A DNA stretch of 42,677 nt, from assembly GCA_013151055.1 (NCBI GenBank), contig JAADIZ010000054.1, forward strand, positions 1 to 42,677, written 5' to 3'. The notes under the pieces are model-generated. The model was not told the DNA's origin. It saw only the letters and a list, made by a program, of their open reading frames with translations, and made no database searches. Shown in pieces: positions 5,299 to 9,698 of the stretch (the stretch's first letter is position 1; each line of letters starts with the position of its first letter). Both the position numbers and the translations under genes were made by a program. Source of the DNA: Campylobacterota bacterium (GTDB lineage Bacteria > Campylobacterota > Campylobacteria > Campylobacterales > Sulfurospirillaceae).

Positions 5299-5354
5299 AT
5301 AAACATACAGTTTTATTGTAATCAATATTTCTAGGCGACAACCTTAGCAATAGG

Positions 5355-5406
5355 GCGAGGAATTTTTTATGGGCTTTGCCCTTAAAAAAGGGGACATAAA
5401 ATGAAA
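5355..5406 (+). repeat. 52-bp leader repeat, copy 1 of the proB array
   Basis: GCGAGGAATTTTTTATGGGCTTTGCCCTTAAAAAAGGGGACATAAAATGAAA, identical to 4 other copies in the window. Confidence 0.95.
5369..5404 (+). CDS. Candidate coupled mini-ORF MGFALKKGDIK*
   Basis: GCGAGGAA SD-like + 6 T + ATG; TGA overlaps the next ATG (ATGA). Confidence 0.4.
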   Translation: MGFALKKGDIK

Positions 5407-5430
5407 GTTATTTCTAGGCGACAGCCTTAG
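5401..5430 (+). CDS. Candidate mini-ORF MKVISRRQP*
   Basis: Starts at the ATGA overlap after AAGGGGACATAAA. Confidence 0.3.
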   Translation: MKVISRRQP

Positions 5431-5438
5431 CTTTAGTC

Positions 5439-5490
5439 GCGAGGAATTTTTTATGGGCTTTGCCCTTAAAAAAGGGGACATAAAATGAAA
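5439..5490 (+). repeat. 52-bp leader repeat, copy 2 of the proB array; its terminal ATGAAA is the proB start
   Basis: Identical to the other four copies. Confidence 0.95.
5453..5488 (+). CDS. Candidate coupled mini-ORF MGFALKKGDIK*; stop overlaps proB start
   Basis: ATG at 5453, TGA 5486-5488 overlaps proB ATG 5485-5487. Confidence 0.4.
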   Translation: MGFALKKGDIK

Positions 5491-6255
5491 AAAAGAATTG
5501 TAGTAAAAGTAGGCACTCATGTATTAAGTGAGCAAAATAGACTTTGCAAAGAACGCATGATGAATTTAGTCGAATTCTTATCAAAACTTATGGATAAATA
5601 CGAAGTTATTTTGGTTTCATCTGCTGCTGTAGTTGCTGGATATTCTAAGCTAAAACTTGACAAAAATCAACTACATAATAGACAAGCAATGGCAGCCATT
5701 GGTCAGCCACATTTGATTGCGGCATATAGTAAAAAATTAGAAAAATTTGGCAAAATAGCAGCACAACTCCTTTTGACATCTGATGATTTTGACTCAAGAA
5801 AAAGAACACATCATGCAAAATGCACAATAAACACACTGTTAGAAAACAATATATTGCCTATCATAAATGAAAATGATGCAACAGCAACTGAAGAGTTAGT
5901 TTTTGGTGATAATGACCAACTTTCTGCAAGGGCAGCATATTATTTTGATGCTGGGATATTGATACTTTTATCTGATATAGATGGTTATTACGATAAAGAC
6001 CCAAAAAAAAATCCAAATACGACAATAAAAAAAATTGTGCATAATATTGAAAAATGTGAATTAAATGTAGATGAAGAAAGTTCATATGAGTTTGCTACGG
6101 GCGGAATTGTTACTAAATTAAAAGCAGCAGATTATCTACTGAAAAGAGATATAGATATGTTTATAGCTAGTGGGTTTGACCTAAAAGATATCGAAGGTTA
6201 TATGCTAAGAAATGAGCATCTAGGTGGAACTTTATTCACTTCAAAAGATTTTTGA
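5485..6255 (+). CDS. proB: Glutamate 5-kinase (short form without PUA domain)
   Basis: MKKRIVVKVGTHVLS, NRQAMAAIGQPHLI, INENDATATEELVFGDNDQLSARAA, GTGGIVTKLKAA-like ATGGIVTKLKAADYLL. Confidence 0.93.
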   Translation: MKKRIVVKVGTHVLSEQNRLCKERMMNLVEFLSKLMDKYEVILVSSAAVVAGYSKLKLDKNQLHNRQAMAAIGQPHLIAAYSKKLEKFGKIAAQLLLTSDDFDSRKRTHHAKCTINTLLENNILPIINENDATATEELVFGDNDQLSARAAYYFDAGILILLSDIDGYYDKDPKKNPNTTIKKIVHNIEKCELNVDEESSYEFATGGIVTKLKAADYLLKRDIDMFIASGFDLKDIEGYMLRNEHLGGTLFTSKDF

Positions 6256-7169: not shown

Positions 7170-7785
7170 AAGTATCGAATCAACCCACCTCTATCTTATT
7201 GATGAAATTAAAAAAGGAAATATAAAAGAGCCTACTTTGATTGGAGCTGATTTTCAAACCAATGGAATTGGCAGTAGAGGAAATTTGTGGCAGAGTCAAA
7301 TCGGCAATCTTTTTTTCTCATTTTGTGTAGAAGAGAAACACTTGCCCAAAGATTTGCAATTAGCATCAATTTCTATATATTTTGCATATCTCATGAAAGA
7401 AGTTTTGAGCTCATTTGACTCGAAAACTTGGCTTAAATGGCCAAATGATTTTTATTTAGAAAACAGAAAAATTGGCGGCGTAATAACAACAAAAATTGGC
7501 GATAAAATTATTGGTTCAATGGGTTTAAATATCGTCGAATCCCCCCGAGAGTTCGGCATTTTAGATGTATATGTAGAACCAAAAAAATTAACTGAGAGAT
7601 TTTTGGAAAATTTAGAAAAAAAATTATCATGGAAGCAAGTTTTTAGTAAGTATAAGATAGACTTTCAAAATAGTAAAGATTATTTTTGTCACTTGGGCGG
7701 TGAATTAAAGTCTTTGTCACAAGCAAAATTGTGCGAAGATGGCTCCATAGAATTAGACAAAAGAAGGGTGTACAGTTTAAGATGA
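7150..7785 (+). CDS. birA: Biotin--[acetyl-CoA-carboxylase] ligase
   Basis: STHLYL, ADFQTNGIGSRGNLWQS, LKWPNDFYLENRKIGGVI. Confidence 0.88.
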   Translation: MVVNWFRSIESTHLYLIDEIKKGNIKEPTLIGADFQTNGIGSRGNLWQSQIGNLFFSFCVEEKHLPKDLQLASISIYFAYLMKEVLSSFDSKTWLKWPNDFYLENRKIGGVITTKIGDKIIGSMGLNIVESPREFGILDVYVEPKKLTERFLENLEKKLSWKQVFSKYKIDFQNSKDYFCHLGGELKSLSQAKLCEDGSIELDKRRVYSLR

Positions 7786-8567
7786 GTGAAATTATAACTA
7801 TAGCAAATCAAAAAGGTGGCGTTGGTAAAACAACGACAGCTGTTAACTTGGCGGCTTCTTTAGCTGTTGCAGAAAAGAGAGTTCTTCTAGTAGATATAGA
7901 TCCTCAATCAAATGCAACAACAGGACTCGGTTTTCACAGAAGTGATTATGAGTACAATATATATCATGTTCTAATAGGCAGAAAAAAACTATCCCAAGTA
8001 ATACTTGAAACTTCGTTGCCAACTCTGCATTTAGCACCTTCAAACATAGGATTGGTTGGTGTTGAAAAAGAGTTTTATGATGTAAAGACCAAGGGTAGAG
8101 AAGTAATTTTGAAAGATAAGATTTCTGAAGTGAAAGATAAATATGATTACATAATCATAGATTCACCACCAGCACTCGGCAGCATAACTATAAACGCACT
8201 CAGTGCTTCAAATTCTGTTATCATTCCAATACAGTGTGAATTTTATGCACTAGAGGGTTTAGCTCAGTTATTAAATACAGTAAAACTAATCAAAAAAACA
8301 ATCAATCCAAAATTAGAGATTAAAGGTTTTCTTCCAACTATGTATAGCACGCAAAACAATCTTTCAAGACAAGTTTTTGCGGATCTGAAGCAACATTTTA
8401 AAAGTAAGCTATTTTTAGACAAACAAACTTCATCTTATGTTGTCATTCCAAGAAATGTAAAATTAGCAGAATCGCCAAGTTTTGGAAAACCAATAATACT
8501 ATATGATATAAAATCAGCAGGTTCAAAGGCCTATCAAAATTTAGCAAATTCGATTTTAGCAAGTTAG
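7782..8567 (+). CDS. parA: Chromosome partitioning ParA/Soj ATPase
   Basis: MSEIITIANQKGGVGKTTTAVNLAASLA; ATG 7782 overlaps birA stop (ATGA); ORF-track start 7731 is too early. Confidence 0.96.
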   Translation: MSEIITIANQKGGVGKTTTAVNLAASLAVAEKRVLLVDIDPQSNATTGLGFHRSDYEYNIYHVLIGRKKLSQVILETSLPTLHLAPSNIGLVGVEKEFYDVKTKGREVILKDKISEVKDKYDYIIIDSPPALGSITINALSASNSVIIPIQCEFYALEGLAQLLNTVKLIKKTINPKLEIKGFLPTMYSTQNNLSRQVFADLKQHFKSKLFLDKQTSSYVVIPRNVKLAESPSFGKPIILYDIKSAGSKAYQNLANSILAS

Positions 8568-8640
8568 AAAAAGCCAAATGACATATTTTGCAAAAGCGAT
8601 AATAAATAAAGAATTTCAAGGCGACAGCCTTAGCAATAGG

Positions 8641-8692
8641 GCGAGGAATTTTTTATGGGCTTTGCCCTTAAAAAAGGGGACATAAAATGAAA
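8641..8692 (+). repeat. 52-bp leader repeat, copy 1 of the parB array
   Basis: Identical 52-bp sequence. Confidence 0.95.
8655..8690 (+). CDS. Candidate coupled mini-ORF MGFALKKGDIK*
   Basis: SD-like GCGAGGAA; stop overlaps next ATG at 8687. Confidence 0.4.
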   Translation: MGFALKKGDIK

Positions 8693-8770
8693 TTACAGAG
8701 CACCAGCTCGTGCTTTAGTCGCGAGGAATTTTTTATGGGCTTTGCCCTTAAAAAAGGGGACATAAAATGA
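8687..8770 (+). CDS. Candidate mini-ORF MKLQSTSSCFSREEFFMGFALKKGDIK* (27 aa)
   Basis: SD-like AAGGGGA upstream; TGA overlaps the next ATG at 8767. Confidence 0.4.
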   Translation: MKLQSTSSCFSREEFFMGFALKKGDIK

Positions 8771-8772
8771 AA
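8721..8772 (+). repeat. 52-bp leader repeat, copy 2 of the parB array (within an 80-bp tandem unit 8687-8766)
   Basis: Identical 52-bp sequence; 80-bp period. Confidence 0.95.
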
Positions 8773-8850
8773 TTGCAGAGCGCTAGCTCGTGCTTTAGTC
8801 GCGAGGAATTTTTTATGGGCTTTGCCCTTAAAAAAGGGGACATAAAATGA
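8767..8850 (+). CDS. Candidate mini-ORF MKLQSASSCFSREEFFMGFALKKGDIK* (27 aa); stop overlaps parB start
   Basis: TGA 8848-8850 overlaps parB ATG 8847-8849. Confidence 0.4.
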   Translation: MKLQSASSCFSREEFFMGFALKKGDIK

Positions 8851-8852
8851 AA
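8801..8852 (+). repeat. 52-bp leader repeat, copy 3 of the parB array; its terminal ATGAAA is the parB start
   Basis: Identical 52-bp sequence. Confidence 0.95.
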
Positions 8853-9698
8853 AAAAAAGCATTGGGACGAGGATTAAGTGCCATCATTGATGATGTTGAA
8901 GAAGCCTATAGACAAGATATAGAATACTCTAATGACTTAGTTAGGGAGGTAGATATACAATTAATCTCTCCAAATCCATATCAACCAAGAACTTATTTTA
9001 ATGAAGAAGCTTTAAATGAGCTGAGTCAATCTATTAAGAAACATGGACTCCTTCAGCCAATCATTGTTATACAAAAAGATGATGGGTATATGCTCCTTGC
9101 AGGAGAAAGAAGACTAAGAGCTACAAAATTAGCAGGAATGACTAGAATCAAGGCAATTATTGCTGACATTGAATCTAAAAATCTAAGAGAACTTGCATTA
9201 ATAGAAAATATACAACGAGAAGATCTAAATCCAATAGAACTTGCTATTTCTTATAAAGAATTAATAGAAGAGTACAGCATAACTCAAGATGGATTGTCCG
9301 AAATTATTCATAAAAGCAGAACACAAATCACAAATACTATTCGACTTCTTGGTTTAAACAATAAAACAAAAGAGTATTTATCTAATGGAAAGATTTCCCA
9401 AGGTCATGCTAAAGTGATAGTCGGGCTTGCTCAAGAAGATGAAATTAGTGTTGTAAATACAATCTTAGGTCAAAAATTGAGTGTGAGAGATACGGAAGCA
9501 TTAGTAAAGAGAATAAAAGCCAATACAAATGAACCTAAGCATAAAATTAAAGTACCAAATCCACTAGAAGAAGATATAAAAAGCATAAAGATAAAACTAA
9601 TGGAGCTAGGTTTTAAAAGTAAAATCAATAAAAATAGTATAACAATCGTTTTTGACAATAAAGATAAAATAGAAGAGTTCTTTACTAAACTATCATAG
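8847..9698 (+). CDS. parB: Chromosome partitioning protein ParB/Spo0J
   Basis: KALGRGLSAIIDD, ISPNPYQPRTYFNEEALNELSQSIKKHGLLQPI, LLAGERRLRATKLAG, ALIENIQREDLNPIE. Confidence 0.96.
   Translation: MKKKALGRGLSAIIDDVEEAYRQDIEYSNDLVREVDIQLISPNPYQPRTYFNEEALNELSQSIKKHGLLQPIIVIQKDDGYMLLAGERRLRATKLAGMTRIKAIIADIESKNLRELALIENIQREDLNPIELAISYKELIEEYSITQDGLSEIIHKSRTQITNTIRLLGLNNKTKEYLSNGKISQGHAKVIVGLAQEDEISVVNTILGQKLSVRDTEALVKRIKANTNEPKHKIKVPNPLEEDIKSIKIKLMELGFKSKINKNSITIVFDNKDKIEEFFTKLS

Follow-up and report, generated by a model that had tools for sequence, protein, structure and literature searches.

Tandem units between parA and parB

The window, i.e., the whole stretch of 42,677 nucleotides analysed here, carries parA (7782-8567, 261 aa; Pfam AAA_31 1.7e-69 and CbiA 3.4e-27) and, downstream, parB (8847-9698, 283 aa; Pfam ParB_N 5.1e-30 and HTH_ParB 1.4e-30), all features given by coordinates in this section being located on the + strand. 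Between the parA stop codon (8565-8567) and parB, three exact copies of a 52-mer (GCGAGGAATTTTTTATGGGCTTTGCCCTTAAAAAAGGGGACATAAAATGAAA) are found, at 8641-8692, 8721-8772 and 8801-8852, namely with a period of 80 bp and with no match in shuffled sequence. Three repeat units were delimited here by a whole-genome covariance model, at 8610-8691 (78.7 bits, E 8.9e-16), 8689-8771 (87.9 bits) and 8769-8851 (87.0 bits, E 8.5e-18). Each unit comprises two hairpins, assigned from the sequence and from covariation within the family. Hairpin 1 lies at 8617-8633 in unit 1 (CAAGGC-GACA-GCCTTAG), at 8696-8712 in unit 2 (CAGAGC-ACCA-GCTC(G)TG, with a bulged G) and at 8776-8792 in unit 3; hairpin 2 lies at 8649-8675 in unit 1 (TTTTTTATGGGC-TTT-GCCCTTAAAAAA), at 8729-8755 in unit 2 and at 8809-8835 in unit 3.

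Respective to coding potential, consecutive ORFs can bridge the whole interval. Mini-ORF 0 (8578-8685, 35 codons, translated as MTYFAKAIINKEFQGDSLSNRARNFLWALPLKKGT), which is without a clear SD, starts 10 nt past the parA stop and ends 1 nt ahead of the ATG at 8687. This ATG, preceded in unit 1 by the SD GGGGA and a 6-nt spacer (8676-8689), is the start of mini-ORF 1 (8687-8770, 27 codons, MKLQSTSSCFSREEFFMGFALKKGDIK), itself followed by mini-ORF 2 (8767-8850, 27 codons, MKLQSASSCFSREEFFMGFALKKGDIK). Mini-ORFs 1 and 2 each end in a TGA that forms an ATGA with the following ATG; the last of these ATGs (8847) is the parB start codon. Unit 3 is thus the source of both the SD and the start codon of parB, again as GGGGA, 6 nt and ATG (8836-8849).

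As such, the three tandem 52-mers, the chain of stop/start-overlapping mini-ORFs running into parB and the provision of the parB SD and start codon by the last repeat, all reported in a preliminary description of this DNA, were found as stated there. Its short first mini-ORF, MGFALKKGDIK, is better replaced by the 35 codons of mini-ORF 0; the internal ATG of TTTTTTATGGGC is part of the local variant of hairpin 2, most other copies of which exhibit CTTGGGC, AGGAGC, GCGGAATT, etc.

A second array is present in the window ahead of proB (5485-6255, 256 aa, glutamate 5-kinase-like; Pfam AA_kinase 2.1e-42), where the 20-mer core of the parB-array repeat occurs twice more, at 5355 and 5439. It consists of two units (5324-5405, 77.7 bits, and 5407-5489, 91.1 bits) with an 84-bp period and a broken mini-ORF, the second unit being the source of the proB start. 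This array belongs to the present genome only, none being found in the relatives compared and G002 showing a tail-like remnant at most (compared genomes are designated by G numbers and contigs by C numbers). The five copies of the window (8641-8852 and 5355-5490) have identical cores that occur exactly nowhere else in the genome, and this identity suggests recent local copying or gene conversion across some 3.2 kb.

A dispersed family of hairpin-bearing units at gene starts

Over the whole genome, a pattern search returned 30-33 close copies, and a covariance model built from 47 copies returned 121 copies; these form 62 clusters, of which 26 are single, 23 double, 9 triple and 4 quadruple, the search having scored 150 candidates and the figure of 121 possibly being a lower bound. 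The parB repeats are therefore members of a dispersed family of about 120 hairpin-rich units in this campylobacterial genome. With a fuller model search, 112 copies were counted in G006, a species of the same genus; in a screen limited to 76-77 scored copies per genome, 18 to 77 or more were counted in congeners and 0-54 in the remaining genera of the presumed host family, and few copies, if any, came from other families of the order. The best named match of the window ParB (61%) comes from a Sulfurospirillum sp. MAG in which the element is also present, and named relatives put the host within Campylobacterales. No match to the element was obtained with Rfam for the window and element-rich loci, the sole window match being a tRNA, nor in a virus collection searched with the 20-mer core, and the literature searched yielded no report of such repeats for Campylobacterota.

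The position of the copies is far from arbitrary. In the stretches analysed around the hits, none of the 62 clusters is of mixed orientation, and every cluster abutting a protein gene runs in the direction of that gene. In 45 of the 62 arrays, the ATG or GTG of the last copy is itself the start of the downstream ORF, usually with the copy's own SD; about a dozen further arrays have an ORF start within some 30 nt, and the remainder lie at contig ends, beside tRNA genes or without a clear ORF. Likewise, among the 69 scorable arrays of G006, 49 supply the start and 17 lie just before it. Starts supplied by the element take the form ATGA or GTGA in 41/46 cases vs 24/42 for the ORFs of the window. 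Most arrays follow, within 70 nt, the end of an ORF on the same strand, and most copies thus reside inside apparent operons. The downstream genes, some 60 in number, are unrelated and without a common pathway, e.g., rpe, pdxA, ispH, proB, purH-like, mreB, rplK and infA. Copies in arbitrary positions and orientations, an outcome considered in the preliminary description, are hence the opposite of what was found, the family being in sense at gene starts. A few copies adjoin opposite-strand tRNA genes with no sense-direction coding gene (C4:10439 and C10:169 in the present genome, C4:230 in G006).

A unit of about 80-84 bp is composed, in order, of (i) hairpin 1 with its bulged base, (ii) the box GCTTYAGTCGCGAGGAATT, (iii) hairpin 2, (iv) an SD (AAGGGGA or AAGGAGA), (v) 6-7 nt, and (vi) ATGA(AA). 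Hairpin 1 begins with a C-G pair and an A-T or T-A pair, exhibits one bulged base on its 3' side and continues in a freely varying stem (TGGC/GCCA, GAGC/GCTC, GAAG/CTTC, CGAC/GTCG, CGCC/GGCG, ATGC/GCAT and others); all six pairs are formed in 91 of the 106 scored copies, with many different stem sequences. Hairpin 2 spans from a T-run to an A-run, with 96.8% of cells paired, 110 double-change cells vs 39.3 in shuffles, and a covariation score of 0.61 vs 0.19 in shuffles and at most 0.16 when partners are slid. Both hairpins are maintained via compensatory changes. Variants of hairpin 2 at parB in G001 and at pdxA in G006 are lengthened internally (CTGCCCATAAATTT...TTTATGGGCAG), as though another palindrome had become nested in the hairpin.

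The SD and start are a less constant part of the unit, being present in 42 of the 62 terminal copies vs 10 of the 53 internal ones. In some subtypes, GATGACA or GAAAACA stands in place of the SD, the hairpins being retained and the start lost; these are mostly internal in arrays or located ahead of genes having their own SD, such as rplK, rplL, mreB and infA, so that coupling is not universal. Intrinsic termination was discarded as a function of the family, CTCG...CGAG with its T-run (8707 and 8787) being tied to one variant of hairpin 1 and hairpin 2 being followed by an A-run.

Leader reading frames ahead of the host genes

A leader ORF was defined as having at least 20 codons, an SD or coupling to the upstream stop, and a stop at the gene start; as a null, random deletions of 0-2 nt were introduced in hairpin 1 over 300 trials. 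In the present genome, a leader ORF ends on the gene start in 20 of the 45 arrays supplying a start (null 10.0±2.3, maximum 17 of 300) and at least 16 of these 20 overlap it as ATGA; in G006, the figure is 30 of 49 (null 12.8±2.5, maximum 20), it being understood that copies are related by descent and that this null thus overstates their independence. By the same definition, 25/45 and 19/49 arrays, respectively, are without a complete leader ORF, and no global depletion of stop codons was found. Considering units with SD-ATG at both ends, the spacing is 80 or 83, i.e., 2 mod 3, in 14 of 19 cases in the present genome and 25 of 31 in G006, and the ORF reaches the next start in 15 of 19 and 30 of 31. 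Where an internal ATG has been lost, in-frame fusion is met, e.g., 90 codons across three units on C38 and, on C187, 55 codons starting at a GTG that overlaps the TGA upstream of it. The leader peptides are read in different frames (SREEF vs ARNF), hence it is continuity and not the peptide that is kept; a conserved leader peptide was likewise rejected given the different frames used, the unrelated downstream genes and the lack of any Pfam match. Across the repeat family, frame continuity rather than peptide sequence is conserved, and the self-similar chain of mini-ORFs singled out at parB proves to be a recurrent, frame-maintained pattern.

Such continuity could in principle arise by accident in stop-poor sequence, if the units were neutral tandem and dispersed repeats spread by recombination only. 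The element sequence is indeed often open in two frames, and the tail-permutation test of tail length vs frame gave 36 vs 31.9±2.6, which at P=0.08 is not significant and suggestive only. Neutral spread nonetheless accounts poorly for the strict sense orientation at start codons, for hairpins preserved by compensation, and for the 2-mod-3 spacing together with the excess of leader ORFs in two species, and we regard it as the most improbable of the readings weighed here.

Alternatively, the units could be a cis-regulatory structured RNA, e.g., a riboswitch, an attenuator or a protein-binding 5'-UTR element, spread to many genes and with merely incidental leader ORFs. A regulatory RNA would agree with the covariation of both hairpins and with the conserved single-stranded box that precedes the SD, as well as with the parB leader (8656-8685 and the following units), where the 3' arm of hairpin 2 (GCCCTT) can alternatively base-pair to the SD (AAGGGG), the two structures excluding each other. 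Set against this are the absence of a match in Rfam, downstream genes without a shared pathway, a presence at orthologous genes that differs among close relatives, and frame continuity above the null in two genomes, so that regulation in cis appears unlikely, albeit the least so of the alternatives.

Empty and filled sites, and the resemblance to MIRUs

The comparison of orthologous junctions reveals sites with and without the element, most relatives having none at parA-parB, proB, pdxJ-pdxA and aroA-ispH. At pdxJ-pdxA, G009 and G011 have a bare ATGAAA overlap, G003 has one unit, the present genome reads ATGAAA-three units-ATGAAA, and G006 reads ATGAAA-unit-ATGAAA-unit-ATGAAA, i.e., three consecutive ATGA overlaps forming an independent two-unit relay. 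At aroA-ispH, four units are present here, none in the congeners examined, and degenerate remnants in other genera. The parA and parB genes abut or nearly abut without any element in G003, G005, G006, G009, G011 and others, while G007 and G013 have one unit each and G001 has two, all of other sequence. A duplicated site, as given by the ATGAAA flanking both sides at pdxJ-pdxA, is less clean at the parB and proB junctions. Taken together, the empty and filled sites fit recurrent insertion at start codons, with ATGA(AA) being duplicated, and an additional growth in tandem. At the parA-parB junction of G008, a different palindromic insert of about 290 bp was observed (GTACCCCACCGCCCATAGATTGAGG...CCTCAATCTATGGGTGGTGGGGTAC).

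The same junctions bear on the proposal of the preliminary description, i.e., a termination-reinitiation relay specific to parB and tuning ParB dosage. What speaks for it is local, namely consecutive ORFs fully bridging parA and parB and three identical copies feeding the SD and start of parB. Yet the same family precedes some 60 unrelated genes, and most congeners are without the element at this place (G003, G005, G006 and G009, with the unrelated insert in G008), parA there abutting parB with no array, or have only the one or two units of other sequence seen in G007, G013 and G001. A special role of the array in ParB dosage is therefore unsupported, and a parB-specific relay very improbable. 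The pattern first noticed at parB is real and meaningful; its generality held and its uniqueness to parB did not, the two covarying hairpins, the dispersed nature of the repeat and the proB array going beyond what had been noticed.

The reading we favour, with a probability of roughly 0.7, is that of a MIRU-like dispersed element which inserts at start codons and whose coupled ORF would keep ribosomes reaching the host gene. In the course of events that we infer, the element would insert at start codons, typically where the stop of an upstream gene overlaps the following ATGA(AA) or lies very close to it; the old start codon would then open a leader ORF across the element, and this ORF, if translated, would terminate at the TGA within the ATGA that the element brings along, this ATGA becoming the new start of the host gene. 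With tandem copies, successive mini-ORFs would overlap in a relay or be fused into a single leader ORF. As a likely consequence for expression, ribosomes would still be delivered downstream through the new SD and the -4 nt coupling, and insertions into operons would likely be tolerated as a result. The hairpins probably serve the element itself, i.e., its mobility or RNA stability.

A published precedent thus exists for what had been thought to match no known class. The mycobacterial MIRUs (Supply et al., 1997; summary in PMC12548453) are apparently mobile, insert at start codons and have an internal ORF coupled to the host gene with a -4 nt spacing, probably limiting damage (2025 review, PMC12548453). 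The campylobacterial element resembles them in (i) its short dispersed units, single or in direct tandem (clusters of 1-4 units here, and likewise numerous in G006), (ii) its placement at the start codon of a gene with which it is co-directional, with 45/62 arrays supplying the start, (iii) an ORF within the unit, predicted to be coupled to the host gene by the ATGA overlap in 20/45 and 30/49 arrays, and (iv) an apparent mobility. MIRUs insert at start/stop sites of the DTGA type, the site being duplicated in the process. The likeness concerns organisation, and the hosts belong to different phyla, a campylobacterial relative on the one hand and mycobacteria on the other hand. Two covarying hairpins characterise the present element, whereas MIRUs are reportedly devoid of dyad symmetry; it also differs in carrying its own SD, in having many degenerate subtypes without start codon, and in a leader frame and peptide that are not fixed. 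Because of the covarying hairpins, the own SD and the different phylum, we provisionally file it as MIRU-like and not as a MIRU.

Going further, it could tentatively constitute a new class, arisen independently of MIRUs, of structured mobile elements targeting start codons in Campylobacterota, in which hairpins would be recognised by an enzyme, possibly acting in trans, insertion would duplicate ATGA(AA), and the coupled leader ORF and own SD would let the element colonise essential operons unsilenced; at present this is somewhat less probable than not. If the MIRU-like reading is true, the strategy of inserting at a start codon and passing ribosomes on via a coupled mini-ORF has at least two origins, and natural arrays of 0-4 units along with empty sites would make translational coupling and the movement of a non-autonomous repeat directly testable. 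Many housekeeping genes of these bacteria would also owe their ribosome-binding site and start codon to a repeat, which would affect gene-start annotation as well as strain typing, the latter since copy number varies between relatives.

The TAACTGA direct repeats of Beggiatoaceae (PMC4679880) are similarly tandem, forward and located just upstream of the start codons of unrelated genes, but their units measure 7 bp and lack hairpins, an SD and an ORF. Leader-peptide attenuators and uORF reinitiation leaders share a small ORF before the gene with overlapping stop and start; the element differs by its lack of conserved peptide, regulatory codons or regulon and by its dispersed, mobile-like copies.

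No transposase was identified as moving the element. In a further alternative, a RAYT (Y1/HUH) transposase recognising the bulged hairpins would have moved the units as REP-like palindromes. The many intergenic hairpin copies recall REPs and BIMEs, hairpin 1 with its bulge has a form similar to that of the IS200/IS605 and REP hairpins, and the present genome has two RAYT-like Y1_Tnp genes. However, both genes (C77 and C91) are flanked by a different repeat, AAGGGGTCAGGGTTAAAC...ACCCTGACCCC, and no copy of the element was found that credibly adjoins them or matches their ends; G004 and G005, with 51 copies each, show no Y1_Tnp, both being draft genomes; and REPs are not restricted to the sense side of start codons, whereas the element is always in sense at gene starts with its SD and ATG. 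Mobilisation by these RAYT genes was rejected on account of their differing flanking repeats, and a REP-like origin in general is quite unlikely. The AAGGGGTCAGGGTTAAAC...ACCCTGACCCC repeat of C77 and C91 corresponds to a distinct REP-like family, one member of which also lies beside a copy of the element on C135.
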